Positions 3,271 to 36,031 of a stretch of DNA of 36,031 bases are shown in pieces. A program made the translations under genes and the position numbers. The DNA comes from a virus. The first letter of the stretch is position 1. Each line of letters starts with the position of its first letter. The notes below the pieces were generated by a model. It did not search any database, was not told where the DNA came from, and saw nothing but the letters and a program-made list of their open reading frames with translations. The stretch lies in IMG/VR virus record IMGVR_UViG_3300048928_000675, positions 1 through 36,031 of that record; one strand, written 5' to 3'.

Positions 3271-3310
3271 AAATAATATGATTTTTTATTATTATTTAAT
3301 CATATTATTT
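3271..3310. promoter_or_regulatory. 13-bp inverted repeat in the repressor/early control region
   Basis: AAATAATATGATT at 3271-3283 is repeated as its exact complement AATCATATTATTT at 3298-3310, separated by 14 AT-rich bases. It lies directly upstream of the repressor start (3244) on one side and the early genes on the other. It may be an operator bound by a repressor or Cro-like protein, although the extreme AT content raises the chance of coincidental symmetry. Confidence 0.5.
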
Positions 3311-3333
3311 AATTATATTTGTTTAATAATAAT

Positions 3334-3349
3334 AATCCTGTACAGGATT
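3334..3349. promoter_or_regulatory. Perfect 16-bp palindromic operator candidate
   Basis: AATCCTGTACAGGATT is a perfect 16-bp palindrome with a GC-containing core in an otherwise AT-only region. It lies 15 bases before the chosen start of the first early gene (3365). That size and symmetry fits a dimeric HTH repressor. A Bacteroidota-like -7 element, TATATTTG (3314-3321), lies just upstream, but no clear -33 TTTG is seen at the right distance. Confidence 0.65.
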
Positions 3350-3364
3350 TATAATGCAAATGTA

Positions 3365-10017: not shown

Positions 10018-11769
10018 ATGAAAATAACCCCCGAAATGCTTTCTTCTGTTCCTTTTCAATATGCGCAAGATGTATTGGATGGTAAAATAGTGACGGGTAA
10101 AAGGATAAAACAAGCTGTGCAACGCTTTTATAAATGGATTGATGAAGCCGACACTTCAGGTTTTTACCTGGATCATAAGGCTGGAATGTTTGTAGTGAAC
10201 TTTTTCCCGATGTTTATTAATCATACTACCGGTAAAATGCAGGGTAAACCGTTTCATTTAGCACCTTTTCAGGCTTTTACAATGTACAATGTGTTTGCAT
10301 GGAAAAAAATGACAGGTTCAAAACCTGATAAGGCTAATGACCTGCGCAGGATAAAAACGGTTTATGATAAACGCGCAAAGAAAAACGGCAAATCTGCTGA
10401 AATGGCTGGGTTGTCATTAGTAATGCTTAGTGTGGATGCTGAAAGCGAAGCGCAGGTATATGTAGGTGCTACAAAAGAAGATCAGGCGCGTATTTGTTGG
10501 AAACAGGCAAAAAGTTTTATTGATAGCCATGTAGCGAACCCGATGTTAAGGAGATTAGGCTTTTTTACCCAGCAAAGGGTAATTGGCTTTTCCGGAACAA
10601 ATTCTGTGATGATGGCTTTGGGTGGTGATAGTAAAACGCAGGATGGTATTAATGCACACCTGGCTATAATTGACGAATACCATGCTCACAAAGATGATAG
10701 TGTAAAAGAAAATTTAGAATCATCGATGGTTATGCGCTCCCAACCTATTGTATGGCATATCACTACAGCCGGAACCAATGTACAAAGTGCTTGCAAAAGA
10801 TATGAAGATAGTGTTATTGAAGTTTTGGAAGGCCGCGCAAAAGATTTAGATCACTTATTTATCATGATTCACGATCTCGATGCCGGTGATGATTGGGAAG
10901 ATCAAAACAATTGGATTAAAGCTAACCCATTATTAGGGCATGGATTAGAATTGAAAGGTATCATGGAGGAATACGAAAACGCAAAACTCCAATTATCAAA
11001 AATACCAAATTTCAAGACAAAACATTTAAATATGTGGGTGGATGCTCCGAAAATTTGGATTCCAAACGAAATATGGCAGCAGAACAAACATACACTTAAA
11101 GAAAATGAAGTTTTAGAGAAATTTCAAAAATTTGGTGGTTATGTTGGTTTGGATTTATCTACAAAACTGGATATTTCTGCTTACGTCTTGCTTAGTGAAC
11201 CCGACGAGAATATGGATCGTTATGTTGTGCCCTGGTTCTTTTGCCCGAAAGATAATATTGATGTAAGAAGTAAAAACGATGGTGTTCCGTATCGCTATTG
11301 GACGGACGAAGGGTTTATTACTGCAACGCCAGGCAATGTAATCGACTATGATTATATAGAAGATACCATAAAAGCCACTTATAAAAAATACAATATCGAT
11401 CGTATAGAAATTGATCCATGGAACGCCTGCCAAATGACCACAAACCTAATGAATCAGGGTGTAAATGTTTCTGAATTTGAGCAGGGAATCGGAAAAATAT
11501 CCGGACCAACAAAAGAATTTGAACGACTGGTGTATTCGGGTAAAATTAAACACGATGGAAACCCAATTTTAGAATGGATGCTTGCCGGATGCCAAATTTA
11601 CCGCGATGCTAATGACAATATGAAAGTACACAAAGGTCAAAGCAATGTAAACGGCCGCCGTATTGATGGAATTATAGCGATCATTAATGCCCTGGGTGGT
11701 TCGCTTTCACCGCCTGAAGATACCAACGAAAGTATTTACAATAACCCTGATGTGCCCTTTGAATGTTAA
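10018..11769 (+). CDS. terL: Terminase large subunit
   Basis: A 583-residue packaging motor of the Terminase_1 type. Walker A is KRAKKNGKS (118-126), with the KNGKS form usual in this family, and Walker B is HLAIIDE (214-220), with the catalytic Glu at 220 and YHAHKD following. The coupling motif region WHITTAGTN is near residue 245. The C-terminal RNase H-like nuclease begins at GGYVGLDLSTKLD (about 373) and continues with RIEIDPWN and RRIDGIIAIINALGG near the end. It cuts concatemeric DNA and pumps it into the prohead through the portal. The length is normal. Confidence 0.95.
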   Translation: MKITPEMLSSVPFQYAQDVLDGKIVTGKRIKQAVQRFYKWIDEADTSGFYLDHKAGMFVVNFFPMFINHTTGKMQGKPFHLAPFQAFTMYNVFAWKKMTGSKPDKANDLRRIKTVYDKRAKKNGKSAEMAGLSLVMLSVDAESEAQVYVGATKEDQARICWKQAKSFIDSHVANPMLRRLGFFTQQRVIGFSGTNSVMMALGGDSKTQDGINAHLAIIDEYHAHKDDSVKENLESSMVMRSQPIVWHITTAGTNVQSACKRYEDSVIEVLEGRAKDLDHLFIMIHDLDAGDDWEDQNNWIKANPLLGHGLELKGIMEEYENAKLQLSKIPNFKTKHLNMWVDAPKIWIPNEIWQQNKHTLKENEVLEKFQKFGGYVGLDLSTKLDISAYVLLSEPDENMDRYVVPWFFCPKDNIDVRSKNDGVPYRYWTDEGFITATPGNVIDYDYIEDTIKATYKKYNIDRIEIDPWNACQMTTNLMNQGVNVSEFEQGIGKISGPTKEFERLVYSGKIKHDGNPILEWMLAGCQIYRDANDNMKVHKGQSNVNGRRIDGIIAIINALGGSLSPPEDTNESIYNNPDVPFEC

Positions 11770-14014: not shown

Positions 14015-14710
14015 TTAATAAACGTATAGATATTTATTTACATAAAAATGGTCATTCCAAAATTGGTCATCAAAAGGGTCTGTTTTTTTTGAAATAAACA
14101 CAGGTATCGATTCTGCTTTGGTTGCATCATAAAGCCTCTTGCTGATTAAATACTTTTGAGTATTTTCGTCCCAACGGATATAGTAGCAATGTAGGATAGT
14201 CATATTTCTCGCACCTACTTTGAAGGTTATAAAGTGTTCGTTTTTATTTAACAATACAAGGACAGGGAGATTGACTTTATTATTTTGAGATAAATTAAAG
14301 ATTGCTTGATTGGGTTCTGCACGATTCCACTCTCCAGGGCGGTATATCACTTTATCACCATCAACTTTAGGTCTATAAGTATCTTGTCGGAGATAGTTGT
14401 TACATAATATGTTTATATCTATTATTGGATAAGGCGTAGTGTTTTCTAGTATGAATGTCATCCTATTCATATCTATGTATTGGGGCACAACAGAGGGCCA
14501 TCCATAACCCTCAATTTTTTTAATAGTTTCTTTTTGTAGAAGCTCTGAATTTCCTTGTTTAGTTAGCACCTCTTTTGTTAAATTTTCGTTTTTCCTTGCA
14601 GAAGCTTCCGCTCCATAATATTGATAAAAAGCGATGCCAGTGCTTAATACGCCAACTATCAAAATAAAAATTCCAGGTCCTGGCTTTTGCCAAACAATAT
14701 CCCATTCCAT
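14015..14710 (-). CDS. Membrane-anchored hypothetical protein (cargo)
   Basis: A 231-residue protein with one N-terminal transmembrane helix (about residues 12-31, GIFILIVGVLSTGIAFYQYY) and then a short charged helix and a C-terminal domain of about 150 residues with strand-like segments (MTFILENTTPYPIIDINI, HFITFKVGARNMTILHCYYIRW). No known domain. It lies on the opposite strand to the late genes and follows nothing closely, so it probably has its own promoter and is expressed in the lysogen. A role in phage exclusion or host envelope change is a guess from that context. Confidence 0.6.
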   Translation of the reverse strand: MEWDIVWQKPGPGIFILIVGVLSTGIAFYQYYGAEASARKNENLTKEVLTKQGNSELLQKETIKKIEGYGWPSVVPQYIDMNRMTFILENTTPYPIIDINILCNNYLRQDTYRPKVDGDKVIYRPGEWNRAEPNQAIFNLSQNNKVNLPVLVLLNKNEHFITFKVGARNMTILHCYYIRWDENTQKYLISKRLYDATKAESIPVFISKKTDPFDDQFWNDHFYVNKYLYVY

Positions 14711-15777: not shown

Positions 15778-16404
15778 TTACCTGGTAATTGGTACTGCTT
15801 TTAGCTCGATCTCGCTGCGGTTCTTATAAGGTTCTAACTTTTCGTTGTTTAACCACAATTTTTGTTCGTCTATTGTCATAACTACAGGCATTCGCTTTGC
15901 TGAATTATGGATTTCTGCCATTAGTGTATTGGCTTCGGTGGTAAGGATCGTAAAAGTTGGTTCGTTATTAACCATTGAGTAAATACCTGCCATTGCAAAC
16001 GGATCACCTGAAGGAAGCGAAATCTCATAAGGTTGTTTATCTACTTTTGTGCCGGTTGTGAGTACATGCTTGTATTCAATAAAACTTTGTGCTAGTATCA
16101 AACATCTGTTATCAACATTCGATTTATAGGAGTTTAATGTTTCTACGGTTTCAATTTTGGCATTTAGCGTGTTGGCTTTTTTAAAGAATTCCTTTCGATC
16201 TTGTTTAGCTGCCCAATATGGAATAAGTCCCCAATATCCTGAAGTAATTATATTTGGATTCTTATCGATAATGATTGCCGCATGTGGGTGATCGAAGCCA
16301 AATAGTTTTACTCCTTCAGTAAATTCAAAAGCAGCATCTAAATCTGCACTGAATAGATCAACCATCTTTTTTTTACTAGCCGGTGCTTTGTAGGTGTAAC
16401 ACAT
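15778..16404 (-). CDS. SRAP / HMCES-YedK family abasic-site protein
   Basis: A 208-residue SOS-response-associated peptidase family protein. All key residues are present at the right spacing: Cys2 (exposed after Met removal), the N-A-K-x-E motif (Asn81, Glu85), Glu110 in CLILAQSFIEYK and His166 in AEIHN-x-A-x-RMPV. In YedK the equivalents are Cys2, Asn75, Glu105 and His160. Known relatives form a thiazolidine crosslink to abasic sites in single-stranded DNA and protect them. It is the last gene of the umuD-umuC operon, 1 base after umuC, so it is expected to be induced together with the translesion polymerase when DNA is damaged. Confidence 0.92.
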   Translation of the reverse strand: MCYTYKAPASKKKMVDLFSADLDAAFEFTEGVKLFGFDHPHAAIIIDKNPNIITSGYWGLIPYWAAKQDRKEFFKKANTLNAKIETVETLNSYKSNVDNRCLILAQSFIEYKHVLTTGTKVDKQPYEISLPSGDPFAMAGIYSMVNNEPTFTILTTEANTLMAEIHNSAKRMPVVMTIDEQKLWLNNEKLEPYKNRSEIELKAVPITR

Positions 16405-16405
16405 A

Positions 16406-17671
16406 TCATAGACAGTTTACAGTTATTATATCTTTCGGGTTGGTAGTGTAACATGGTGATAGCCTTTCCTGCTTCATTTTCCATTTACGATCTAAAGCCA
16501 TCCCTCCAAATTTTACAACGTCTTTTCCGGTGCTCCTGTTTACCGAATCAATTACTTTCATGAGGTCCTGGTGTTTGGGGTTCTCCCCTTTAAACAGGTT
16601 CATTTGGTAATTTTCGGCTGGTGTGATGTTCATTACTATTACCCCTGCTTTTTTATAATGGTACCCGGGCCTGTATATCCTATCTAGTCCCATGTGAGCA
16701 ATACGGATAACTTCCATAGTGGAATTGGTAGGGAATTCAACCGGGAACATGATCGATGGGTTATAAGGTGGTAAATCGGTACGGAACCGGTTTGTTTGCA
16801 GGAACACACACACCATTCGTGTATGGCTTCCTTCTTTACGAAGCTTTTCCGCAACTGTTCCGGCAAAGGTGGCTAATCTTTCTTTTAGTAGGTCTTTATC
16901 CGATATCATCCCTTCAAAACTTCGTGTGCATGCTATGTTTTGCTTCGGTTTGATCTCTTCAAAACCGATGGACGGTTTATTTTCAAGATCGTGTTTTAAT
17001 CGTAAGCCTACAACGCTCATGTTTTTACGTACCCATTCATCCGGAAGCTGTGTAAAATCGTAAGCCGTAAAAACTTTAATAGCATTCAATCGTTTTGCAT
17101 GCTGGCGGCCAATACCCCAAACGTCCTCCACTTTAAGCCATTTTAAAGCTTTGACACGTTTCTCTTCAGAGTCCATAACATAAACGTTATTCCAATGCTT
17201 ATGATATTTTTTTGCAATCCGGTTGGCTACTTTGGCCAGTGCCTTTGTCGGTGCAAATCCGATACTGACGGGAATACCGGTACCTCTTAAAATTCGCTTG
17301 TGTATGGTTATGCCGTACTGGTAAAGATCAAAATATGTATCGAATCCCTCAAACTTCATGAAAGCTTCATCAATAGAGTAAATTTCTATATCCGGGGTGT
17401 ATTCACCTAGTATAGTCATTACCCTGCTGCTCATATCTCCGTAAAGCGGATAGTTGGAAGAAAATACTTTTATATCGTGCTCCTCGAATAAATGTTTGTA
17501 TTCAAATGCAGGTGCTCCCATTGGCACGCCTAATGCTTTTGCTTCGTTGCTACGTGCAATTACGCATCCGTCATTGTTAGATAATACAACAACAGGTTTT
17601 TCCCTAAGCAGCGGATTAAAAACCCGTTCGCAGGATGCATAAAAATTGTTGCAGTCAACTAAAGCGTACAT
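16406..17671 (-). CDS. umuC: Translesion DNA polymerase V catalytic subunit UmuC
   Basis: A 421-residue Y-family polymerase. The N-terminus [17 protein letters not shown] has the catalytic Asp6, and the second catalytic pair lies in YSIDEAF. The [17 protein letters not shown] segment is typical of UmuC. The helix-hairpin region around [13 protein letters not shown] and a little-finger domain follow. The C-terminus carries QMNLF (356-360), a beta-clamp binding motif, and then the UmuC-specific tail ending [11 protein letters not shown]. It copies damaged DNA with low fidelity, in complex with cleaved UmuD. It is 2 bases after umuD and 1 base before the SRAP gene, so they form one operon. The full set of domains argues that it is functional. 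Confidence 0.97.
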
Positions 17672-17673
17672 AG

Positions 17674-18132
17674 CTAAAAGTCTTTTATAACATGGATCAC
17701 TCTACCCCAAATAAGAAAGCTTTCGTTTTCTTCCGTAACCTTGATAGGCTGGTACGCTTCGTTTTCGGCTACAAGCCAAATTGTTTTTGTTTTCTTTTCT
17801 ATCTGTACCCTCTTAACTGTAAATTCCCCGTCAATAAAGCAAACGAATATCTTACCGTCTTCCGGTGCCAGTGAGCGATCTATTACAAGGGTATCACCGT
17901 CATGTATACCCACATCTTTCATGGAATTTCCTTTTACTTTGGCATAAAACGTCTCTGATGGGTGTTTAACCAGGATACGGTTAAGGTCAATCTTTTCTCC
18001 CATGAAATCCTGTGCAGGTGAAGGAAACCCCGCGCTGATGCCGCCGGATATAAAAGGTATTTCTAATTCTGTAGACACTTCAGGTATAAAGAATTGGAAC
18101 TTTCCGTTAGGATCAATATTTATCACTTTCAT
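17674..18132 (-). CDS. umuD: UmuD-like LexA-type self-cleaving protein
   Basis: A 152-residue S24-family protein without a DNA-binding domain. The catalytic Ser70 lies in VKGNSM and Lys107 in FTVKRV; the predicted self-cleavage bond is Ala34-Gly35 in [13 protein letters not shown]. RecA-triggered cleavage would give the active form that joins UmuC. It heads a three-gene minus-strand operon. Its start is 64 bases from the inverted repeat at 18196-18211 and 70 bases from the late-promoter element, so the 139-base gap to the portal must hold both the SOS promoter and the late promoter. No known LexA box could be identified. Confidence 0.94.
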
Positions 18133-18195: not shown

Positions 18196-18211
18196 TTTCG
18201 TAAAAACGAAA
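18196..18211. promoter_or_regulatory. Inverted repeat between umuD and portal
   Basis: TTTCGT (18196-18201), four A, then ACGAAA (18206-18211) make a perfect 6-bp dyad that overlaps the left end of the 32-bp late-promoter element. At the second copy of that element the left arm is imperfect (TTTGTT), so this dyad may be specific to the divergent umuD/portal control region, for example an SOS operator. Confidence 0.35.
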
Positions 18212-18251
18212 CAATGTTTCACCTCTACGGAAAACACCAAAAGTACTTTTA
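18202..18251 (+). promoter_or_regulatory. Phage late promoter, copy 1 (before portal)
   Basis: A 32-base block (18202-18233) with the dyad GAAAC-AAT-GTTTC (18208-18220), followed by ACCTCTACGGAAA, is repeated 31/32 at 24755-24786. In both places TACTTTTA, close to the Bacteroidota -7 consensus TAnnTTTG, follows the dyad by exactly 23 bases, here at 18244-18251. The portal ATG (18272) is 20 bases further on. Conserved block, spacing and distance to a start codon all point to a promoter. No normal -33 TTTG is present, so an activator bound at the dyad may be needed. Confidence 0.75.
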
Positions 18252-18271
18252 CCCTATTAATAAGTTTGGGT

Positions 18272-19504
18272 ATGAATGTAATAGACCGTGCTTTTTCCGA
18301 TATGCTATCCTCAAAGCGTTCTGCTGATGAAGGTGCCGCAAAGAGTGGGAATTTATTTTCCGACTTATATGCCTTTGGTGGTGTAAAAGGATCTCGTGCG
18401 GTCAATTACAAGCAATCCCTAAAGCTAAGTGCGGTTTACAATGCTGTAGATATTAAGAGCGATGCCCTGGGTGTTGTTCCTTTTTGTGTTTATCAAAAGA
18501 CAGATGAAGGTCGCGAAAGATTAAAGGATCATCCTGTAGACTGGATGCTGAACCAGGAGCCGGATGGTGAAGATGGATATCTTACACCTTTCCATTTTAA
18601 AAAGCTAAAAGGGATTTCTTTAATGCTTCGAGGCAACTGCCTTTTTAAGATCATTGGAAGAAATAACGGTGTAGCGTATGTAAAATACATTGCCTGGGAT
18701 GATGTTTACGATATTAAAAAAGTAGATGGAAGACTGGTATATCAGGTAAAAGGTGAAACGCTTCTTTCTTCTGAAGTACTGCATTATAAAATATTCAGTT
18801 TTGATGGTATATGTGGTATTTCAGTTATTACTTACGCCTGTCTAAATCTGAATACAGGATTGGAAGTTCAGGAATTTAGTTATACCAACTTCCAGAATAA
18901 AGGTGTTAGACAGGGTGTTATAGAAACAGATAAGCAGTTAACCCAGGATGATGCTAAAGGAAAGATTAAAACGGCATGGAATTCTGCAATGCAACAGAAA
19001 TCTCCCGACCGCATTGTGGTACTGGATGATGGTTTTAAATTCAAATCAATCACAATAACCCCACAGGAAGCACAATTAATCGAATCTGCACGATTCAATA
19101 TTGAAGATATCGCACGATGGTTCAATGTGCCATTATACAAACTAAAATCCCTTACACAAAGTACAAATAATAACGTGGAGCAAATGGCTATTGACTGGCT
19201 TGTAGATAGCGTGCAGCCCCTAGTAACGAGCGTGGAACAGGAAAGTGCTAAAAAGCTTTTAAGTCGGGCGGAACGTAAAAGCGGCCGATACATTAAAGGC
19301 AATATGAATGTACTGCTTCGCGCCGATACTAAATCACGAGGTGAGTTCTATTCTAAAATGGTTAATAACGGCATACTAACGCCTAATGAGATAAGGGAAA
19401 TGGAAGAACGTAATAAAAAAGATGGTGGTGATGAATTACGTTTCCCGGTAAACACACAAACACAGACTCAAATTGATGCTAAAATAGAAGAAAATGAGCA
19501 GTAA
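18272..19504 (+). CDS. Portal protein, HK97 family
   Basis: A 410-residue protein; ATG 18272 is chosen over a TTG two codons earlier. Motifs of the HK97 portal family appear in order: SAVYNAVDIKSDALGVVPF, DHPVDWMLNQEPD, LRGNCLFKIIGRN, HYKIFSFDGICGISVI, GVRQGVIETDKQLTQDDAK, the IEDIARWFNVPLYKL motif and a C-terminal segment PNEIREMEERN. Twelve copies form the ring through which DNA enters the head and to which the tail joins. The gene follows a phage-specific promoter and overlaps the protease gene by 11 bases. Confidence 0.94.
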   Translation: MNVIDRAFSDMLSSKRSADEGAAKSGNLFSDLYAFGGVKGSRAVNYKQSLKLSAVYNAVDIKSDALGVVPFCVYQKTDEGRERLKDHPVDWMLNQEPDGEDGYLTPFHFKKLKGISLMLRGNCLFKIIGRNNGVAYVKYIAWDDVYDIKKVDGRLVYQVKGETLLSSEVLHYKIFSFDGICGISVITYACLNLNTGLEVQEFSYTNFQNKGVRQGVIETDKQLTQDDAKGKIKTAWNSAMQQKSPDRIVVLDDGFKFKSITITPQEAQLIESARFNIEDIARWFNVPLYKLKSLTQSTNNNVEQMAIDWLVDSVQPLVTSVEQESAKKLLSRAERKSGRYIKGNMNVLLRADTKSRGEFYSKMVNNGILTPNEIREMEERNKKDGGDELRFPVNTQTQTQIDAKIEENEQ

Positions 19505-20123
19505 AGATTACATAAAAAGTATAGACGGTGCAGAACGCCGCTATGCAGTATCGGATATGCGCGTAGAAAAACGTGCCGATAGTGAAGGAAAAGAAAATTT
19601 TACCGTAGAGGGTTACGCTGCATTATTTGAAAAGCCTACCGTTATTGGAGGATGGTTTGAAGAAGTAGTTGAAAAAGGCTTTTTCGATGATGTCCTTAGT
19701 GACGATATCCGTTGCCTGTTTAATCATGATGCAAACCAAATTTTAGCGCGCTGTTATAAAGGTAAGGGTACGCTTGAAGTAGGGATTGATGAAAAAGGTT
19801 TATGGTATCGTTTTATAACTCCTGACAGACAGTATGCACTGGATTTGGCAGATGCTATTGATAAAGGTGATGTTTCGGAGTCTTCATTTTCTTTTGTACC
19901 TAAAGAAGAAGAATGGGTAAAAAGAGAAGGTAAAATGGATCTGAGGAGGCTAATAAAATGTAAAATATTATATGATGTATCACCGGTAACTTTTGCGGCA
20001 TATCCTGATACTACAGTGGCGAAAAGAAGCCGTGATGCATTCATGGAAATAAGGGAAAATATTCCTAACGATAAAGAGCTCTCTTTAATGGAAGCGCAGT
20101 TAATTATTAATCAAAATTTGTAA
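19494..20123 (+). CDS. Prohead maturation protease (HK97 family, S78-like)
   Basis: A 209-residue serine protease of the herpes/HK97 assemblin type. The catalytic His78 is in CLFNHDANQ and Ser131 in GDVSESSFSF; the strand VEGYAALFEKP and RFITPDRQYALDLADAI complete the pattern. It removes the scaffold-like N-terminal part of the capsid protein during head maturation. The start overlaps the portal end and the stop is 6 bases before the capsid gene. This portal-protease-capsid order is the standard HK97 layout. Confidence 0.93.
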   Translation: MSSKDYIKSIDGAERRYAVSDMRVEKRADSEGKENFTVEGYAALFEKPTVIGGWFEEVVEKGFFDDVLSDDIRCLFNHDANQILARCYKGKGTLEVGIDEKGLWYRFITPDRQYALDLADAIDKGDVSESSFSFVPKEEEWVKREGKMDLRRLIKCKILYDVSPVTFAAYPDTTVAKRSRDAFMEIRENIPNDKELSLMEAQLIINQNL

Positions 20124-20129
20124 ACAGAC

Positions 20130-21449
20130 ATGAAAAAGTCGTTTGAATTTATCAAAGAAAGAGCCGCGTTAATAGAGGCTCAAAAAAGGCTGCATGAAGC
20201 AGCTGAAAAAGAAACACGTTCCTTGAATGAAGCTGAAACAAAAGAGTTTCGCGATATGCAGGGGCAAATTGAAGCGCTCAACGAAAAAATTAAGGATGCC
20301 GAGGCGTACGAAGCAAACTTGAGAATGATGGCGCAAACAGCACCTTCGGTTCTTACTACTGTTAATGGTGAAGAAAGAGAACTGGATAAAATGAAGGAAG
20401 GGTATTCACTGTATAAAGCTATGCGTTCGCAGATGCAGAATGGTGAAAAGCTTAGCGGTGTAGAATTGGAATTCCATCAGGAAGCTGAAAAACGCGCTAA
20501 AGTTGCCGGTGTTAGTTTGGGTGGTTTGGCTATCCCGACTTTTGACAGGCGTTCTGAAAAAAGAGCCGATGGCCAAACCGTTACTCAGGATTCAGGTGCT
20601 TACGGTGGCAACCTTGTTGCTACAGAGCAAAGGCCGATCATTGAAATGCTAAGGCCAAAGCCAGTTTTAGAAATGATGGGTGCAACGTTTTTAACAGGGT
20701 TACAGGGCAATCTTAAGTTCCCGGTAAATAACGGTGGTATTGCTGCAACCTGGGAAGGTGAAGTAGATACAGTGCCGAATTCTAAAAACGCTTACGGCAG
20801 CAAAACAATGACGCCAAAACGTTTATCTGCTTCTGTACTGATCTCTTTGCAGAATATCATGCAGTCTGTTATTGATCTTGAAAAATACACGATCGATGAT
20901 ATTAATAACGTCATAGCACTTGCTATTGATACTGCGGGTATTAACGGTACCGGTACTAACGATCAGCCTACGGGTATATTGAATGTTAGTGGTACTAACC
21001 CAATTGTTGGTGGTGCGAATGGTGCGGCACCTACTTGGGCGAATGTGGTGCAGATGGAATCAAGTGTATTTATTGAAAATGCAAATGCTGCACGAATGAA
21101 CTACCTGATTAACCCTGTTACAAGAGGTAAGTTAAAAACTACCAAACATGAAGCTGGTGATCTTGGTTATCTGATGGGTACTGATAACACGATTAACGGT
21201 TATGGTGTAGGTACAAGTAACCTTATGCCGTCTAACCTTACTAAAGGTACTGGTACAGGTTTAAGTGCTGCTATTTTTGGTGATTTCAGCCAGTTATACA
21301 TTGGTCAGTGGGGCTTCCTTGATTTGTCTGTAGATGATAAATCACGTAAAAAAGAAGGTTATGTGGAAGTTACCGTAAACACTTTCGTAGATCTTATGAT
21401 CCGTCAGCCAAAAGCATTCTCAATTGTTAAAGACTGGATAACTACATAA
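20130..21449 (+). CDS. Major capsid protein, HK97 fold
   Basis: A 439-residue protein. The first ~70 residues are a charged coiled coil (delta-domain) that serves as built-in scaffold and would be cut by the protease, probably at a site between residues 90 and 150. The shell domain has the usual segments: GGNLVATEQRPIIEMLRPKP, the E-loop area GIAATWEGEVDTVPNSKN, MTPKRLSASVLISLQN, the spine/A-domain AIDTAGINGTGTNDQPTGIL and the late strand GDFSQLYIGQWGFLDL. It is the main head protein and should be the most abundant phage product. The length is normal for the family. Confidence 0.96.
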   Translation: MKKSFEFIKERAALIEAQKRLHEAAEKETRSLNEAETKEFRDMQGQIEALNEKIKDAEAYEANLRMMAQTAPSVLTTVNGEERELDKMKEGYSLYKAMRSQMQNGEKLSGVELEFHQEAEKRAKVAGVSLGGLAIPTFDRRSEKRADGQTVTQDSGAYGGNLVATEQRPIIEMLRPKPVLEMMGATFLTGLQGNLKFPVNNGGIAATWEGEVDTVPNSKNAYGSKTMTPKRLSASVLISLQNIMQSVIDLEKYTIDDINNVIALAIDTAGINGTGTNDQPTGILNVSGTNPIVGGANGAAPTWANVVQMESSVFIENANAARMNYLINPVTRGKLKTTKHEAGDLGYLMGTDNTINGYGVGTSNLMPSNLTKGTGTGLSAAIFGDFSQLYIGQWGFLDLSVDDKSRKKEGYVEVTVNTFVDLMIRQPKAFSIVKDWITT

Positions 21450-21462
21450 TATTAACGATCCT

Positions 21463-21717
21463 ATGAAAAAAGTAAGATTTGTATTGTCACCCACAGGCCA
21501 TTTCGGCCTGGGGTACAATATCGGTGAAGAAGCTGAATTTGAAGATAAGCAGGCTAAAGAACTAATTGAGATGGGTTTTGCTGTTCCGGTTGATGGTGAT
21601 GCTAAACCCACTAAAGAGGAACTTAAAAAAGCAGCTGATCTAACCGTTAACGGTGCTGAAAATGCATCGGATAAAGCGGCGGCTGGTGCTGAAAAAAGAG
21701 ACGGTGTAAAACCTTAA
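21463..21717 (+). CDS. Small head-region protein
   Basis: An 84-residue protein: KVRFVLSPTGHFGLGYNIGEEAEF forms a small beta-rich domain, then DKQAKELIEMGFAVPV, and a long Ala/Lys/Asp-rich C-terminal tail that is likely disordered. Short proteins of this type often follow the capsid gene in Bacteroidota siphophages. It may be a head decoration or accessory protein, but no function is shown. It starts 13 bases after the capsid stop. Confidence 0.6.
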   Translation: MKKVRFVLSPTGHFGLGYNIGEEAEFEDKQAKELIEMGFAVPVDGDAKPTKEELKKAADLTVNGAENASDKAAAGAEKRDGVKP

Positions 21718-21729
21718 TACTATCCAAAG

Positions 21730-22287
21730 GTGATAAAAGATAAAGAAATACTTCCCGGAACAGGAACTGCGGTAACCCTCGAACTTGCTAAAAAGCATTT
21801 AAACATCGAAGCTGATTTTACTGATGATGATGAACTCATTGGTGTTTATATCGATGCAGCGGTGCAGGATGCAGAAAACTATACAGGGCATCCGTTATTC
21901 CAAATCGTGAAAGTATACCTGAATAATTTTTTATTGCCTTTGGTTATACCTGCTTTTGCAGATGCTTCGGTTACTGAAGTTACTTATGCAGTCGATAACG
22001 GTGGTGTAGTGACTTACGAAGTATTGCCGGAAGTAAACTATCAATTATCCAAATTAAATAACAGTGCGGTGGATCTTGTCTTTAAAGGTGATGATCTGCC
22101 TGCGCTGTTACCGGATAATGATAAAGCGGTGATTGTCGAATTGGCTACCTCCTGCCCTTCTAAGGTTAAAGCAGGAATATTACTGCGCATCGGTGATCTG
22201 TATTTAAGACGTGAAGATCGCGCAACTGGTAGTTCGAGTACTGCGGTTTTGGACTTGTGGCGTGACTATAGATCTAACTGGAAATAG
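21730..22287 (+). CDS. Head-tail connector (HK97 gp6-like adaptor)
   Basis: A 185-residue protein that uses a GTG start (21730). The N-terminal part VTLELAKKHLNIEADFTDDDELIGVYIDAAVQDAENYTG is the usual signature of the gp6/gp15 adaptor: a Leu-x2-K-x2-L helix, an acidic DD loop and AA-x3-AE-x2-TG. The C-terminal helix RDYRSNW follows. It forms the ring docked under the portal. It stands between the head genes and the next connector, as in HK97-like phages. Confidence 0.85.
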   Translation: MIKDKEILPGTGTAVTLELAKKHLNIEADFTDDDELIGVYIDAAVQDAENYTGHPLFQIVKVYLNNFLLPLVIPAFADASVTEVTYAVDNGGVVTYEVLPEVNYQLSKLNNSAVDLVFKGDDLPALLPDNDKAVIVELATSCPSKVKAGILLRIGDLYLRREDRATGSSSTAVLDLWRDYRSNWK

Positions 22288-22289
22288 CT

Positions 22290-22619
22290 ATGGAAAAAGT
22301 ACCGTTTGCAGGGCAGTTAGATAGGGTAATTACAATTTACAGATCGGAAACGATTGTAAATGCGGTGTCAGAGCATAAAGTAACATTGATCCAGGTTGCA
22401 AAACCACGGGCAATGTTAAAAGACCTGACAGGATCGCAAGTAATTGAAGGGGCTGTACTGAACGAAGTAAACCGTTCGTACACAATACGCCGTTACAGCG
22501 ATATCGCTAAAAACGGTCGTAATATGATAGTGCAGGACGGTGATGTTAAATACAACGTTTATGCGCTTAAAGAAATTGAACGCACACATTTAGAACTTTT
22601 TGTTACCGCTTATGAGTAG
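22290..22619 (+). CDS. Head closure protein (SPP1 gp16-like)
   Basis: A 109-residue beta-rich protein that begins AGQLDRVITIYRSETIVNAVSEHK, then a strand with VAKPRAMLKD and later NRSYTIRRYSDI and VQDGDVKYNVYALKEIER. This order matches the head-tail joining family that seals the portal channel after packaging. It starts 2 bases after the adaptor and overlaps the gp10-like gene by 8 bases. Confidence 0.83.
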   Translation: MEKVPFAGQLDRVITIYRSETIVNAVSEHKVTLIQVAKPRAMLKDLTGSQVIEGAVLNEVNRSYTIRRYSDIAKNGRNMIVQDGDVKYNVYALKEIERTHLELFVTAYE

Positions 22620-23163
22620 TCCTCTAGTTGAAATAACAGGATTTGCAGAACTGCAGCGTAAACTGATACTTCTTGCTGACGATAAGAAAAAGAAAGCACC
22701 TATGTTAAGGGTGCTTCGTAAGGTAGCGCAGGGAACGATTAAGGCGGCAAAGCGTAACGCTCCGGTAAGTAAACAGGCACACCTGATATCGGGTAAACGT
22801 ACAAGAAAAATAGTACAGCCTAAAAACCTGTCAAAATCTATTGGAGCGATCACGGGTAAAAAAGGTGCAGCTAAAACGAATCCCACTATTTATGTAGGGC
22901 CGCGTACTAAAGGTATAAACGATGGCTTCTATGGAAATTTTGTTGAGTATGGTCATAACATATACAGCAAAGGATTTAAAAGGAAACGTTCGGCATCTGC
23001 GAAAGCAAAAGCACACAATGCGGGCGGTGCAAAAAGCAGGACTACAGCCATTCCTTTTATGCGTGATACGTATGACCAAACAAAAGGCCAGGTAACAGCT
23101 GAAGCGGAAAAAGGCGTAGTGGCTTTTATCCAAAAAGAAATAAATAAACTCAGTACACGATGA
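22612..23163 (+). CDS. Tail completion / neck protein (HK97 gp10-like)
   Basis: A 183-residue basic protein; I use ATG 22612 instead of an upstream TTG. It has the family pattern: ITGFAELQRKLILLADDKKKK, an AAKRNAPVSK segment, GVKR-like lysines, a strand with TIYVGPRTKG and FVEYGHN, and a PFMRDTYDQTKGQV helix. Members of the gp10 family form the ring joining tail tube and head. It overlaps the next gene by 4 bases (ATGA). Confidence 0.88.
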   Translation: MSSPLVEITGFAELQRKLILLADDKKKKAPMLRVLRKVAQGTIKAAKRNAPVSKQAHLISGKRTRKIVQPKNLSKSIGAITGKKGAAKTNPTIYVGPRTKGINDGFYGNFVEYGHNIYSKGFKRKRSASAKAKAHNAGGAKSRTTAIPFMRDTYDQTKGQVTAEAEKGVVAFIQKEINKLSTR

Positions 23164-23492
23164 ACGAAAAGGCAGTAGAATTAGTAAGTTTTATAAACAG
23201 CCGTCCTGAATTTACAGATGTGATAGGCAGCCGTTTATTTCCTTTGGTTGCGCTGAAAGATACACTTATGCCATTCGCGATATACACTATTAGTTCTTAT
23301 CCCCTTTCAAAGGATGGTGACGAATATAGGATAGGTATACAGGCTTTTTTCTCAACTAATGAGTTTACTGAAATGCTGAATTTCATTGATGTGTGCAAAG
23401 GAATATTTAGCGAAAAATACGATGTGGGGAGTGTCGAAACGGATTATAGTCCGGAATATGAATCCCTTTTTACAACAATTCTTTTAACTTAA
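23160..23492 (+). CDS. Tail terminator protein (DUF3168 / gp17-like)
   Basis: A 110-residue alpha-beta protein: ELVSFINSRPEFTDVIGSRLFPLVAL, then PFAIYTISSYPLSKDGDEYRIGIQAFF and a late helix MLNFIDVCKGIF. This fits the tail-terminator family, which caps the tail tube and joins it to the neck. Its place between the gp10-like protein and the tail tube protein supports the call. Confidence 0.8.
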   Translation: MNEKAVELVSFINSRPEFTDVIGSRLFPLVALKDTLMPFAIYTISSYPLSKDGDEYRIGIQAFFSTNEFTEMLNFIDVCKGIFSEKYDVGSVETDYSPEYESLFTTILLT

Positions 23493-23504
23493 AAATTAAA
23501 GATC

Positions 23505-23930
23505 ATGGCGGATAAAATTATTAAAGGCAAAAATGTACGCCTTATCCTGGATGGAAAAAAAATATTCCATGCTACAGAATGCAGTATCGATATGACTTTC
23601 AACCTTGAATCCATTGCGACAAAAGATACTGCCGGAAAAATATCGATACCATCGGATTATGAATGGACGGCTTCGCTTAATGCGCTGGTTGCGGAAAAAG
23701 ATCCGGTATCGTTAACGCATCACAGTTTTATCGATGTGGTGCAAAAAGCATTAGCTATGGAAGAATGCACGTTCCAGTATACCACTGATGAAGAAGGCGA
23801 ATTCCTGTTTACGGGTAAGGTATTTATTAACCAGGCTAACATAACGGCATCTACGGAATCAAGTGCTACAGGAACATTCTCGTTTACAGGGAACGGTAAT
23901 CTTGTGTTAACTGAAGTTCCTGCTCCGTAA
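23505..23930 (+). CDS. Major tail (tube) protein
   Basis: A 141-residue beta-rich protein: GKNVRLILDGKKIFHATECSIDMTFNLESIATKDTAG, then EWTASLNALV and a C-terminal half with FLFTGKVFINQANITASTESSATGTFSFTGNG. It matches the TP901-1/lambda tail-tube type by strand pattern. Many copies build the tail tube around the tape measure. It is directly followed by a strong terminator, which fits high expression of this gene with reduced transcription of the chaperones. Confidence 0.85.
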   Translation: MADKIIKGKNVRLILDGKKIFHATECSIDMTFNLESIATKDTAGKISIPSDYEWTASLNALVAEKDPVSLTHHSFIDVVQKALAMEECTFQYTTDEEGEFLFTGKVFINQANITASTESSATGTFSFTGNGNLVLTEVPAP

Positions 23931-23956
23931 TCTATAAAATACAGACTATAAAAAGC

Positions 23957-23981
23957 ACCTGCCTCCGGGCAGGTTTATTTA
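23957..23981 (+). terminator. Rho-independent terminator after the tail tube gene
   Basis: ACCTGCC (23957-23963), loop TCCG, GGCAGGT (23968-23974), then TTTATTT. It lies inside the late operon, 27 bases after the tail tube gene and 37 before the chaperone gene. Probably partial, since the chaperone and its frameshift product need some read-through unless another start exists. Confidence 0.75.
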
Positions 23982-24010
23982 ACCAACTATAAATTATAAA
24001 AATAATTATC

Positions 24011-24346
24011 ATGAAAATTACAATTAATGGTGTGGAATACACTTTAAAATTTGGATACGGCTGCTTAAGATGTTTAAGTACGCTTTGGGGACTGCCAAGT
24101 GTTAATCATGTAATTGAAAAAGTAGATGCTGAAAATGAGGCTGGCAGGTCATTAGAAGCCTGTATTGATCTTGTTAGGGCATCTGTTTCGGCTTCAGGAA
24201 GTAATGATCCTGGTACAGATGATGTGGGTGATTACCTGATGCAGAATCCTGAAAAGATGACAGAAATTATTGAACTACTTGTAGCATCGTTGCCGGCTGC
24301 TCCTGCTAATGAAACGGGAAAGCAGAAAGCGCAACGGGTGAAGTAA
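24011..24346 (+). CDS. Tail assembly chaperone, short form (gpG-like)
   Basis: A 111-residue acidic protein starting KITINGVEYTLKFGYGCLRCL, with a helical middle and an acidic stretch near SGSNDPGTDDVGDYL. It stands between the tail tube and the tape measure, the fixed position of the tail chaperone pair. In lambda gpG and its frameshift product gpGT coat the tape measure while the tube forms. The end of this frame contains the slippery site GGGAAAG (24316-24322). Confidence 0.85.
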   Translation: MKITINGVEYTLKFGYGCLRCLSTLWGLPSVNHVIEKVDAENEAGRSLEACIDLVRASVSASGSNDPGTDDVGDYLMQNPEKMTEIIELLVASLPAAPANETGKQKAQRVK

Positions 24347-24729
24347 CGAACCCTGTTGCGTTAGACTGGGACGGACTCGAAGCCCTTGCTTGTGGTGAAA
24401 TTGGCCTGACAATAGAATACTTTTACTGGCTTACTCCAAGGCAATTTGCAAATATTGTAAAAGGCTATTTAAGTAAAAGAGAATTTTATTTAAAAACAAG
24501 TTGGGAACAAACACGTAGGGTTATGAGTGTTACCGCTTCGGTAAATTGGAATACATCAAACCATGGGGAATTTACACTGCAAAAGCTTTTTCCTTTCCCC
24601 TGGGATGACAATGTTACGAATGTTGCAGAAACCGATATTAATAAAATTGAGATTGAAGTAGCTACAAAAAATATGCTCGTTTGGGATCGTATCGATGCTC
24701 TAATGAATAAAGATAAAACCGACTGTTAG
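24011..24729 (+). CDS. Tail assembly chaperone, -1 frameshift fusion (gpGT-like)
   Basis: The -1 frame is open from the slippery site to TAG 24727-24729 without a stop. A slip at G-GGA-AAG (24316-24322) after codon 104 gives a fusion of about 239 residues: the first 104 of the short form plus about 135 new ones. The added part begins AESATGEV, then NPVALDWDGLEALACGEIGLT and FYWLTPRQFANIV, a helical domain like lambda T. No independent start with a good leader is seen for the second part, although an ATG exists at 24523. The frameshift is the standard way such phages make the long chaperone at a low ratio. Confidence 0.88.
24316..24322 (+). other. -1 ribosomal slippery heptamer GGGAAAG
   Basis: In the frame of the short chaperone the bases read G-GGA-AAG, fitting X-XXY-YYZ. 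It is identical to the lambda G/T slippery heptamer. The 0 frame ends 22 bases later (TAA 24344-24346) and the -1 frame is open for 408 bases. No obvious strong hairpin was found just downstream. Confidence 0.88.
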
Positions 24730-24740
24730 TCGGTTTTTTT
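24715..24740 (+). terminator. Terminator overlapping the stop codon of the long chaperone
   Basis: ACCGACT (24718-24724), loop GTT, AGTCGGT (24728-24734), with A-T pairs extending it and a following run of T (24734-24740). The stop codon TAG (24727-24729) of the -1 frame lies in the hairpin. The second late-promoter copy starts 15 bases later, so transcription ends and restarts here. Confidence 0.85.
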
Positions 24741-24754
24741 ATGCCTGTTTGTTA

Positions 24755-24804
24755 AAAAACGAAACAATGTTTCACCTCTAAGGAAATCGCTGAAACTACT
24801 TTTA
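24755..24804 (+). promoter_or_regulatory. Phage late promoter, copy 2 (before tape measure)
   Basis: The 32-base block at 24755-24786 is identical to 18202-18233 except for one base (ACCTCTA followed by A here, C there). The dyad GAAAC-AAT-GTTTC is at 24761-24773, and TACTTTTA is at 24797-24804 after the same 23-base gap. The tape measure ATG (24826) follows 21 bases later. No divergent gene is here, so the shared block belongs to the rightward promoter and not to the umuD operon. Confidence 0.78.
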
Positions 24805-24825: not shown

Positions 24826-27513
24826 ATGGCTGGTAGTTTAGCGAGTATTAATATACGTTTTAAAGTTGCTTTGGGTGAATTATCTACCCAACTGCAAAAT
24901 GCTGCGCGTATAGCACAAAGTGCCGGTAAGCAGTTTCAGGATGCAGGACGTACACTAACGCTTGGTTTAACAGCCGGACTTTTAGCGTTTGGTTTAGCTT
25001 CTGTTAAAACCTCTGGAGATTTAGAGGCTCTTAAAAAAGGGCTTACCTCAGTTACGGGATCTGCTCTTGTTGCATCGGCGGAATTTGAGAACCTAAAAGA
25101 AGTTGCAAAATTACCTGGTCTTGGTTTAGAAGAAGCTGTAAGAGGTTCTGTAAATCTACAGGCAGCGGGATTTAGTGCATTAGAAGCTAAAACTTCCTTA
25201 GAGGCTTTCGGTAATGCTTTGGCTACTGTTGGTAAAGGCGCACGCGAACTCGATCTTGTTGTTTTAGCATTGACCCAGTTGAATAATAAAACAACCGGAT
25301 TCGGGCAGGATCTAAGGCAGTTAACCGAGCAGTTGCCGCAATTGCGGGGTGCGTTAACGGCTGCATTTGGTACATCTGACAGCGAAGCAATAGCTAAAAC
25401 AGGGGTTACGGGTAAACAGGTAGTCCAGCTGCTTACAAAAGAGTTTGCAAAGCTGCCAAAGGTTACAGGCGGTATTAATAATGCTTTTGAGAACTTAAGG
25501 GATAGTACGAAAATATCTATGGCAGGTGTTGGAGAAGCACTTAATAAAGCTTTCGATATTGAAGGGCTTTTAGAATCAGTTGGTAAAAGCCTGCAGGGGA
25601 TCACTGAACGATTTCAGGAATTGAGCCCCAACGTGCAAAAAAACATCTTAAAATTCACTGTTTTTGCGGCGGCAATTGGTCCTGTGTTATTGTCTATAGG
25701 TGCTTTATTGAAAGTTATGCCTTTGATTTCTTTAGGTGTAAAAGGTATAGCAACTGCAATAACTTTTGCATCTGTACAAATAGGTAATGCTTTAATATAC
25801 CTTGGAACTGCAATTGCGGCTTTACAGGCTTATGCGATTCCTATTGCAATTGCTTTGGGGGCAATATACCTGGCGTATAAATTAATGCAGCCGGAAATTG
25901 TAAAGCTTACCGGCGCGCAAAAAGATCAGGTCAATCAACAGAAATTATTGACCAGTGTAGTTGATGAAGCCACCCGTTCTATTATATCGCAAAAAGCGCG
26001 TTTACAACAATTGGTTTATACAGCTAAAAATGATAAGCTATCCCTCGTAGAGCGTAAAAAAGCGATGCAGGATATTAATAATATATCTCCTAAATACCTG
26101 GGAAATATTACTCTTGAAACTATCAATACTGATAAAGCTACTGAAGCACTTAATAAGTATAATGAAGCACTTTTAAAAGGCGCAATTGCCAGGGCAGCGC
26201 AAACGAAACTTGATGAACTTGCTAAAAAGCAGGTAGAGTATGGTTTTAAATCTTTAAAAGGAAAAGAGCAGGAAATTGAGGCTAATAAGAAATTAGCTAA
26301 ATCAACTGAAGATATTGCTTCACTTGATGCTTTACGATTAAAACAGCAAAGTGCCTACGGGATTGTAGGTGCTGTATTAGCGCGTGCACAAGAGAAAAAA
26401 GATAAAAAGGAAATAGATTTCCTTACACAGCTTATTAACTCCAATAAGGAATATTTAGGGCTTTTAGAGGGTGTTGGTGATGCAAACGCTAAAAACGCAG
26501 ATGTGTCTAAATACAAAGCTGGAACTATTGCTTTTTATGAAGAACAGATAAAGAGCCTGCAAAAACTTCAAAAAGAATTTGAAACTACTCCTGAAGGTGT
26601 ATCTGTATTAGAAGGTAGAATTGAAGGGCTTCAAAAAAAGATAGATAAACTTAGTAATGTCAAGGTAAAGGTTACATCTGTTTTTGAGGGAATTGAACGC
26701 CCCGATACATTAAATGAAAGCCAGGGTACTACTGACTATTATGACCGACAAATAACAGCCCTAAGAAAGATTCAAAACGAGGTCGCTACAACTTCAAGTT
26801 TTTTTAGAACACTAGAAGAATCTATTGCTGAATTGGAACTGGATAAAGCAGTAAAATTTGATATTGATGTTGATACTACTGGTTTAGATTCTGCTGATGA
26901 AAGTGTAAAGGTTTTTGGTCAAAAATTCGCTAAAAACACAAAAAAAATGATTGAACTCTCAAGAGAGTTTTCTGAAAGTGTTTCTAGTGCTTTTAAAGGC
27001 TTTGTCACGGATTCAATCGAAATGTTTGGTGAGTTAATGGGAAATCTTGCAACAGGTAAAGGATCTCTTGGTGGTGTTCTTGCTGGGCTTTCTAGTTTGA
27101 TTGCTGACTTTGTTATAAACGTGGGTAAATCGCTAATTGCGGTTGGTGTAGCGGGTATTGCTTTTCAAAACTCGCTTACTAATCCTTATACTGCTTTGGT
27201 AACAGGTGCGATAGTAGTGGCTGTGGGTTCAGCTTTTAAAGCTGCTATTGGTAGTTTTAACGATGCCGGTGCTTTTGCTAATGGTGGTATCGTTGGAGGT
27301 TCTTCATATACCGGTGATAAATTATTTGCGCGTGTTAATAGTGGAGAAATGATCCTGAATAAAGGTCAGCAAAATAACCTAGCAAACATGCTTAATCCTG
27401 CTGTTACAGCAAAAGATATGATCGTTCAGCTTGTTGGTGGATTTGAAATTGAAGGAAGCAAATTAAAGCTTGTATTGGACCGTACTAATAATAGGGATAG
27501 CCGAATCAAATAA
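24826..27513 (+). CDS. Tape measure protein
   Basis: An 895-residue protein. The N-terminal ~270 residues are of the TMP type (QSAGKQFQDAGRTLTLGLTAGLLAFG, SGDLEALKKGLTSVTGSA, GFGQDLRQLTEQLPQLRGAL). Hydrophobic membrane-like segments lie around residues 275-350, then long coiled-coil stretches (about 360-690) and a second hydrophobic region (about 740-815). The C-terminal motif ANGGIVGG...GDKLFARVNSGEMILN is a common end of tape measures. It sets the tail length and helps DNA ejection. By the usual ratio of about 0.15 nm per residue, a tail near 130 nm is inferred. Start codon follows a late promoter. Confidence 0.95.
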   Translation: MAGSLASINIRFKVALGELSTQLQNAARIAQSAGKQFQDAGRTLTLGLTAGLLAFGLASVKTSGDLEALKKGLTSVTGSALVASAEFENLKEVAKLPGLGLEEAVRGSVNLQAAGFSALEAKTSLEAFGNALATVGKGARELDLVVLALTQLNNKTTGFGQDLRQLTEQLPQLRGALTAAFGTSDSEAIAKTGVTGKQVVQLLTKEFAKLPKVTGGINNAFENLRDSTKISMAGVGEALNKAFDIEGLLESVGKSLQGITERFQELSPNVQKNILKFTVFAAAIGPVLLSIGALLKVMPLISLGVKGIATAITFASVQIGNALIYLGTAIAALQAYAIPIAIALGAIYLAYKLMQPEIVKLTGAQKDQVNQQKLLTSVVDEATRSIISQKARLQQLVYTAKNDKLSLVERKKAMQDINNISPKYLGNITLETINTDKATEALNKYNEALLKGAIARAAQTKLDELAKKQVEYGFKSLKGKEQEIEANKKLAKSTEDIASLDALRLKQQSAYGIVGAVLARAQEKKDKKEIDFLTQLINSNKEYLGLLEGVGDANAKNADVSKYKAGTIAFYEEQIKSLQKLQKEFETTPEGVSVLEGRIEGLQKKIDKLSNVKVKVTSVFEGIERPDTLNESQGTTDYYDRQITALRKIQNEVATTSSFFRTLEESIAELELDKAVKFDIDVDTTGLDSADESVKVFGQKFAKNTKKMIELSREFSESVSSAFKGFVTDSIEMFGELMGNLATGKGSLGGVLAGLSSLIADFVINVGKSLIAVGVAGIAFQNSLTNPYTALVTGAIVVAVGSAFKAAIGSFNDAGAFANGGIVGGSSYTGDKLFARVNSGEMILNKGQQNNLANMLNPAVTAKDMIVQLVGGFEIEGSKLKLVLDRTNNRDSRIK

Positions 27514-34766: not shown

Positions 34767-34800
34767 AAAGCCGGTGCTTAATTGCATCGGCTTTATTTTT
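34767..34800 (+). terminator. Terminator at the end of the late operon
   Basis: AAAGCCGGTGC (34767-34777) pairs, with one G-T wobble, with GCATCGGCTTT (34784-34794) around a 6-base loop. ATTTTT (34795-34800) follows on the plus strand. The hairpin overlaps the stop codon of the convergent integrase gene (34793-34795) and may also end its transcript. Confidence 0.85.
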
Positions 34801-36031
34801 GTGTATAGTATTCAGTTGGTGCAAATTCGTTGGTCATTTGCTGTACCTGTAACATTTCCCTGTATTTATGTCCGGTGGCATAATGTTTTTCTACCATGTC
34901 TGTAGTGGTATGTCCTGCTGCCCTGGCGGCAACTAATAAAGAAGATCGTTCTGCGATCTCATCAAGGTTGGAATGTTTCAGGGCGTAAAAGTCGGCTGTG
35001 ATCCCTAGTTTTTCTTTAACATGGGTTTTCCAACGCCTTGTGATCTGGTCGCGCCTGATGATTTTTTCGCCCGGAACTAATCCTTTCGAGAAAATAACAT
35101 TTCCTTTTTCAGCCCCTATAAAAGCTTTTTCCCAATAAGGTACACTTATGGCTTTAATTGGTCTGAATATCCACTTAGACTTACCGCCTTTGCGCACAAT
35201 GGTTTTATAGGTAAGATTTACCAGATCAATATCTTCATATCTTAAACTAAGTAACTCTACTTCGCGGCCACCTGAATGAAAAAATAGGATCGTGAACAAC
35301 CAAAAGCGTGGATAATTTTGTTTTAAATGGTTGTTTACCCTGATGCGTTCCGCTACAGTTAAGGTTTGTCGCGGTTCGGTAAGCGTATCTTTCTTTTTAA
35401 ATTTATGCAGCGGATTGAAATCGATAAAACCATTTGATGCCAGGATCTCTAATAATGGCGATAAATGTGCAATGTATTTATTATAGCGTTTATCTGAAAA
35501 TCCTTCTTTTACATTAACCATGTTATCCATGATCTGCCGGATATGGTAACCGCGAACAGTGTTTATTTGTAAATTGGTTACTTTAAGCATATCACATGAC
35601 TGGCTAAAATAGGTCAGCATGGATTTAATATCCTTTTTAGTATCGCTGTTGCAGGTATGCAGGTTATTGGCAAAGTGAAGTGCGGTGATTAAATTAGAAT
35701 CCCGTGTGATCTGTAGAATTGAATCGGATTGCGGTTCATCCTGCGGTACCATGAATTGTTTGGTAATTGGATTGTACCCTTTTTTAAGGACGGTTTCCAT
35801 TTCTTCCCAGGCAATACGAATGGCTTCCCTCCTATCTTCGATAGTGGTCCATTTGTTTTGCCGCCTCCTGAATTGAAAACCCTTCGGTTCTTTGTCCGGA
35901 AACTTAGGATCATGGAAGTCACATTGTACATACCAGTCCTCATTTAAAGCTTTTTTGGAAGTTGTTGTTTCCCAGTTTTGAGGTGATGCCCATACATCTG
36001 TATAAGTGCATCCGAAAAAAGATTTATTCAT
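34793..36031 (-). CDS. int: Tyrosine-recombinase integrase
   Basis: A 412-residue integrase whose start codon is at the last bases of the window. The N-terminal arm-type and SAM-like domains span about residues 50-210; the catalytic domain follows. Arg256 in HSGGREVELL, a Lys in KGGKSKW, His374 in AAGHTTT and nucleophile Tyr384 in KHYATG are present. The box usually written HxLRH is YALKH (349-353), so the first His is Tyr and the Arg is Lys. This variant appears in some Bacteroidota phage integrases and may still be active. It catalyses insertion at the tRNA-His site, the other end of the element. It is convergent with the lysis genes. Confidence 0.93.
   Translation of the reverse strand: MNKSFFGCTYTDVWASPQNWETTTSKKALNEDWYVQCDFHDPKFPDKEPKGFQFRRRQNKWTTIEDRREAIRIAWEEMETVLKKGYNPITKQFMVPQDEPQSDSILQITRDSNLITALHFANNLHTCNSDTKKDIKSMLTYFSQSCDMLKVTNLQINTVRGYHIRQIMDNMVNVKEGFSDKRYNKYIAHLSPLLEILASNGFIDFNPLHKFKKKDTLTEPRQTLTVAERIRVNNHLKQNYPRFWLFTILFFHSGGREVELLSLRYEDIDLVNLTYKTIVRKGGKSKWIFRPIKAISVPYWEKAFIGAEKGNVIFSKGLVPGEKIIRRDQITRRWKTHVKEKLGITADFYALKHSNLDEIAERSSLLVAARAAGHTTTDMVEKHYATGHKYREMLQVQQMTNEFAPTEYYTQK

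Follow-up and report, generated by a model that had tools for sequence, protein, structure and literature searches.

Paired dyad-bearing putative promoter modules and a candidate late activator, ACT, in a phage genome and its Bacteroidota relatives

The IMG/VR virus record IMGVR_UViG_3300048928_000675 is a complete record of 36,031 bp, hereafter the window, and carries two putative late-promoter modules, one just upstream of the portal gene and one just upstream of the tape measure gene (Table 1). Positions 18202-18233 and 24755-24786 are identical at 31/32 bases. Both copies contain the dyad GAAACAATGTTTC, followed after exactly 23 bases by the -7 element TACTTTTA, which ends 20 bases before the ATG of the portal gene (18272) and 21 bases before that of the tape measure gene (24826). 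This duplicated block had been described in a first-pass annotation of the DNA and was reproduced to the base on recount; the opposing umuD-umuC-SRAP genes and the hairpin with its T-run before the second module, which the same annotation had pointed out, are also present. No third copy of the 13-mer dyad was found in the window with 2 mismatches allowed, and the 20-mer GAAACAATGTTTCACCTCTA did not occur in 2.9 million IMG/VR contigs. It is plausible that each module restarts transcription where it would be expected to fail, the first after the cargo operon and the second after the terminator-like hairpin.

Table 1. Positions of the promoter modules, ACT and associated genes in the window
Feature	Position	Strand	Remark
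Repressor-like gene	2843-3244		
Small 'FWHFR' protein gene	3278-3628		adjoins repressor-like gene
TerL	10018..11769	+	PF20441 and PF03354; query used to find relatives; ACT follows
ACT, candidate late activator, 89 amino acids	11791..12060	+	first gene after TerL
Codons of ACT C-terminal helix, residues 73-88, proposed recognition helix	12007..12054	+	DSSP of model, covariation peak; R82 codon 12034-12036
Cargo operon	15778..18132	-	opposes late operon; between ACT and portal
SRAP	15778-16404	-	in cargo operon
umuC	16406-17671	-	in cargo operon
umuD	17674-18132	-	in cargo operon
Putative late-promoter module before portal	18202..18251	+	50-nucleotide direct repeat, 88%
Dyad GAAACAATGTTTC, portal copy	18208..18220	+	centre 18214, about -42 from predicted start
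-7 element TACTTTTA, portal copy	18244..18251	+	host consensus TAnnTTTG with A replacing G-5; predicted start about 18256
Portal gene	18272..19504	+	PF04860, E 1e-75
Intrinsic-terminator-like hairpin AAAACCGACTGTTAGTCGGTTTT, then more T	24715..24737	+	just upstream of second module; inverted repeat listed on opposite strand
Putative late-promoter module before tape measure	24755..24804	+	50-nucleotide direct repeat, 88%
Dyad GAAACAATGTTTC, tape-measure copy	24761..24773	+	centre 24767
-7 element TACTTTTA, tape-measure copy	24797..24804	+	predicted start about 24809
Tape measure gene	24826..27513	+	PF20155, E 1.9e-12

Relatives of the window were collected with its TerL protein. Among viral sequences the search returned 80 loci, with identities of 46-67%; named genomes contributed another 45, of which 16 were from Bacteroidota (Flavobacterium, Myroides, Aquimarina, Lutibacter, Pukyongia and others), while the remainder were distant relatives from other phyla. 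Flavobacterium sp. SLB02 (L258) is an example of a strain with such a prophage. TerL was used instead of the portal and capsid proteins, which, used as queries, brought up hardly any relatives among viral and genome contigs. A relaxed DNA pattern of the module gave many unsorted matches in viral contigs and was not used, and a scan for sigma-70-type promoters was uninformative for the Bacteroidota phylum. Those Bacteroidota relatives that reached far enough had their genes in a common order (TerL, small genes, portal, protease, capsid, tape measure), and because they share this order, the host of the record is probably a member of Flavobacteriaceae.

The module recurred in the relatives with a fixed geometry. 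We found that 38/48 non-redundant portal and tape-measure promoters carried a dyad (at least 5/8 symmetric pairs) centred exactly at -30 from the T of the -7 element TAnnTTT, whereas shuffles of the 48 promoters, 1000 in all, averaged 2.5 and never exceeded 8. When the promoters were aligned on this T, the symmetry profile showed a sole peak at -30, with 6.37/9 pairs versus about 2-3 elsewhere. Given that the T of the -7 element lies at -12 in F. johnsoniae promoters (PMC6847099), the dyad centre is placed at about -42 from the transcription start; the same geometry gives the starts listed in Table 1, the first of which agrees with the start near 18255 that the first-pass annotation had predicted. 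Beyond the portal and tape-measure sites, the module was seen only in a few extra copies, all with the same phasing: upstream of TerL in G044 (L246/L247), about 200-250 bp before the tape measure gene in G028 (L233/L234), G031 (L237) and G037 (L244/L245), and as a second copy before the portal gene in L139 and L176. What speaks most strongly against chance is that dozens of related phages have the same arrangement with different letters. The repeats stand at module boundaries and the phages are mosaic (L171, see below), as would be expected of boundary sequences kept by recombination of head and tail modules, without promoter function. However, the 30-nucleotide phasing to the -7 element stays constant despite diverging flanks, and the extra copies before TerL or small genes keep it as well, so that this explanation appears extremely unlikely.

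The phage -7 consensus was TA(C/A/T)TTTTA followed by C, with A at -5 in 97% of the phage promoters in the column profile, whereas host Flavobacterium promoters carry TTTG or TAnnTTTG with a near-invariant G-5 (PMC6847099). A promoter dependent on a class II activator would have a site centred near -41.5, overlapping the -35/-33 region, together with a poor or missing -35/-33 element. In the phage promoters the dyad is centred at -42, and TTG was present 19-23 nucleotides before the -7 T in 0/48, a supportive point only, since the host promoters themselves carry only a weak -33 motif (PMC6847099). A class II activator-dependent promoter would be expected to show just this combination of a dyad at -42 and no -33 motif. 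In a group of Myroides phages and relatives (L134, L145, L261, L262 and L272), the dyad at -30 is combined with CCTTGTCAAGG and TAAGTTTG, which are nearer to the host consensus, and these promoters are perhaps less activator-dependent.

The first-pass annotation had looked to conservation of the 13-bp dyad with its gap in related phages, and for the dyad sequence this expectation proved wrong: the spacing and the symmetry are kept, and so is the -7 sequence, but the letters of the dyad differ. In most relatives one dyad is common to the portal and tape-measure promoters of a phage (for example GTTACATAATGTAAC, GTTGAATTATTCAAC, GGTACAAATTGTACC, TTGTTATCAATGATAACAA or GGAACAAAGTTACAC), and the letters vary between phages. 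Among 33 phages with both promoters, the two dyads of the same phage differed at a mean of 1.39/15 positions (median 0; 21 identical), compared with 7.93/15 between phages, and the lowest mean obtained in 5000 re-pairings of portal and tape-measure dyads was 5.64. The flank directly upstream of the dyad gave 10.42 mismatches both within and between phages, so the within-phage excess of identity does not extend to it. These data also bear on whether the dyad acts as an RNA hairpin, in processing or antitermination of read-through transcripts, as the inverted repeat near the terminator-like hairpin before the tape measure gene might suggest. The dyad lies upstream of the -7 element and its arms are only about 5 bp long; moreover, within a phage the unpaired centre is conserved to the same degree as the arms, and symmetric positions showed 1 G-U pair against 89 other mismatches. 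A role as RNA hairpin is therefore hardly credible.

When all open reading frames of 33 assembled relatives were clustered, one family of about 85 amino acids, here called ACT, was present in 32/33, and it directly follows TerL in nearly all of them. With a hidden Markov model (HMM), ACT was detected in 76/80 TerL loci. Outside Bacteroidota, in Clostridia, Bartonella and other genomes, the TerL relatives had neither ACT nor the promoter module. The ACT profile search of genomes covered part of the candidates, with 8/397 genomes scored. No supported match to PHROGs, Pfam or NCBIfam profiles was obtained for 57 ACT members, and a supported match was likewise absent in the PDB. The AlphaFold2 model of the window ACT (mean predicted local distance difference test, pLDDT, 79) has four helices, a long one at the N-terminus and three more, of which the C-terminal one is formed by residues 73-88; in the model of the L126 ACT (mean pLDDT 90) the last helix comprises residues 70-84. 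Foldseek gave no PDB match at E <= 0.001 for the two models, small all-helical folds being hard for this program, and the best viral matches in BFVD were four uncharacterised phage proteins. The only ACT member found in the phage record collection was gp08 of Cellulophaga phage phi39:1 (YP_008242160.1; HMM E 2e-20), a cultured phage of Cellulophaga baltica, where it is annotated as hypothetical and is encoded between TerL and portal. In the phi39:1 portal promoter, TAGGTTTA is preceded at -30 by a site with 6/8 symmetric pairs, and no clear dyad site was seen at its tape measure gene.

We then asked whether ACT sequences vary together with the dyads. With TerL distance removed, the partial Mantel r between ACT distance and dyad distance was 0.48 (n=29), the top value among families present in at least 24 phages (next, 0.41). 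Within ACT, the covariation peaked in the last helix at 0.56-0.59, versus at most about 0.35 in the remaining protein, and no 14-residue window of another family in at least 24 phages exceeded 0.45. Two families with 10-12 members gave higher window values and were for this reason compared with ACT on identical phages. This comparison addresses the possibility that the dyad is read by another phage regulator and ACT merely hitch-hikes; candidates would be an early regulator and an Xre-type protein whose gene lies antisense, upstream of TerL. The 73-amino-acid Xre-type regulator is located just upstream of TerL at 2318-2539 of L230 (G025) and in 11 other relatives. The partial r was 0.44-0.46 for the Xre family and 0.56-0.59 for the early family in 10-12 phages, but both families were detected in only 12 assembled relatives and not in the window, and on the identical 10-11 phages the ACT helix gave 0.73-0.80 versus 0.40-0.56 for the rival families, the Xre-type regulator included. 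We regard a different reader of the dyad as very unlikely. The 'FWHFR' family, represented in the window by the gene at 3278, was rejected as dyad reader: it clusters with ACT only via fusion proteins and showed no covariation with the dyad (r 0.02). In several relatives the 'FWHFR' domain is fused behind an ACT-like domain (L186:883-1338; L260:1356-1811), which suggests that the 'FWHFR' protein is an early counterpart of ACT.

The ACT helix also predicted the dyad better than TerL did. With phages within 30% TerL distance excluded, the dyad of the phage with the nearest ACT helix differed from the true one at 5.88/15 positions, versus 8.70 for the phage with the nearest TerL. A basic residue six positions after F76 (F76+6, which is R82 in the window) went with C at -32 and G at -28, that is, at dyad positions -2/+2, whereas an aromatic or other residue went with A/T. 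Counted with a fixed dyad centre, in place of an earlier free-centre test, this rule gave 25/2 versus 4/34. Phylogenetically independent pairs were concordant in 9/10 and discordant in none. On portal promoters outside the discovery set, the counts were 9/3 versus 1/15, and the rule also fitted L306 and L314, two more genomes whose promoters could be read. The failures L168 and L169 probably reflect a mis-assigned -7 element, and in L183 there is no dyad at the assigned position. By eye, R, K or V at F76+2 corresponded to GTTAC, GTTGA or GTTAA in closely related members. Similarly, L157 and L162 have nearly identical ACT N-termini, with different helices and different dyads.

Taken together, these comparisons make it likely that the two blocks are late promoters used by host RNA polymerase and dependent on a phage-encoded activator, most likely ACT; the first-pass suggestion of such an activator thereby gains comparative support and a candidate gene. 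Dimerisation of ACT, DNA binding, activation instead of repression, and timing are what we infer. A dyad over the -33 region could also block polymerase, and the window contains a repressor-like gene, so that the dyads might instead be operators at which a phage repressor, either the lysogeny repressor or ACT itself, silences the late genes. However, the early and repressor regions of all assembled relatives yielded no dyad copy, and the sequence of the repressor does not vary with the dyad (partial r 0.05-0.07; on identical phages, 0.07 for the lysogeny-repressor-like family versus 0.70 for the ACT helix). Further, the promoters lack both the -33 element and G-5, hence they seem weak unaided, and ACT is encoded in the lytic operon. 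Silencing by a repressor is thus unlikely.

Several observations weigh against activation by ACT. No similarity between ACT and a known DNA-binding fold was detected. The gap between ACT and portal, usually 1-1.5 kb of small genes in the relatives, is about 6 kb in the window. In L171 (G035, L240) the portal dyad GTTAACAATGTTTCC and the tape-measure dyad GTTACATAATGTAAC differ within one phage, which would be either a mosaic or a case where the regulator was caught between specificities. The distant relatives L130, L168 and L183 contain ACT and have no clear module at the assigned -7 element. The F76+6 rule was derived from a subset of the data, and the independence of its pairs holds on a TerL tree only, while phage modules recombine. 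By single-column information, ACT R82 ranked 3rd of 3766 columns, and columns of the tape measure and other proteins scored similarly; because single columns alone do not single out ACT, the case for it rests on the helix-level, pairwise and held-out tests.

We propose that ACT would be produced alongside the replication and terminase genes, and that an ACT dimer would bind the dyad at about -42 through its C-terminal helix; this site overlaps the -33 region, the place of TTG in a host promoter. Bound ACT would recruit host polymerase to the -7 element (TAnTTTTA-C), which is off-consensus at G-5, and would simultaneously switch on the head genes, beginning at portal, and the tail genes, beginning at tape measure. 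In the window, the portal module would restart transcription past the opposing umuD-umuC-SRAP cargo and the tape-measure module past the terminator-like hairpin. With its own ACT helix and matching dyads in each phage lineage, the regulators of different phages would be insulated from each other.

Known late regulators offer partial parallels. Ogr of phage P2 and Delta of P4 each serve as one activator for several late promoters of one phage, with a dyad upstream of each promoter; they are zinc-finger proteins with a dyad near -55, in contrast to ACT, which has no conserved cysteine among its invariant or near-invariant columns and a dyad at about -42. C and Mor of phage Mu are small dimeric activators that bind a dyad near the -35 region of late or middle promoters, but they act in sigma-70 hosts and belong to a helix-turn-helix family in Pfam, where ACT has no profile match. 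The regulators RinA, Ltr, ArpU and Alt of Gram-positive phages work as ACT is proposed to (Quiles-Puchalt 2013, cited in PMC13123087). They have about 130 amino acids and adjoin terS, whereas ACT has about 85 and follows TerL; the phi13 Ltr and TP901-1 Alt sites are direct repeats further upstream, in contrast to one dyad at -42 in each of two promoters per genome. A regulator of the Gram-positive kind would be expected to have its gene directly upstream of the late promoter that it activates; ACT lies upstream of portal in the relatives, usually at 1-1.5 kb with small genes between, and with cargo between in the window. The profile searches gave the 57 ACT members no supported match to the RinA, LtrA-C, ArpU or Alt families. 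Flavobacterium host promoters (PMC6847099) share TAnnTTT at -7 with the phage promoters, which have A for G-5 and an ACT-type dyad instead of TTG. Judged from sequence, ACT may represent an activator family not described before, which would work with the Bacteroidota sigma system through a promoter architecture of its own. We lean towards the view that ACT founds a new phage activator family with an undescribed all-helical DNA-binding arrangement, in which few helix positions (R/K versus aromatic at F76+6; R, K or V at F76+2) would set the operator letters, amounting to a natural recognition code and an insulated late-gene switch in each Flavobacteriaceae phage.

Phages of Bacteroidota are common, and the primary sigma factor of their hosts is an unusual one. 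Searches of the open-access literature gave no description of late-gene control in these phages; the first-pass annotation, too, had known of no described promoter of this type there. If the proposal is true, it would name a function for a widespread unannotated gene and provide a rule for locating late promoters in these phages. It would also supply tens of natural activator-operator pairs for the study of protein-DNA recognition, offer orthogonal switches for Flavobacterium genetics, and raise the testable evolutionary question of how an activator and two operators shift specificity jointly.

Other features of the window were also noted. Another minus-strand gene (14015-14710) is, like the SRAP-UmuC-UmuD cargo, inserted between ACT and portal. 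A tyrosine-integrase-like gene lies at the right end of the record (34793-36031, minus strand), with a weak Pfam match below the curated cut-off. Three 22-bp iteron-like repeats at 6568-6649 fall within the replication initiator gene (6306-6971) and are possibly the replication origin.

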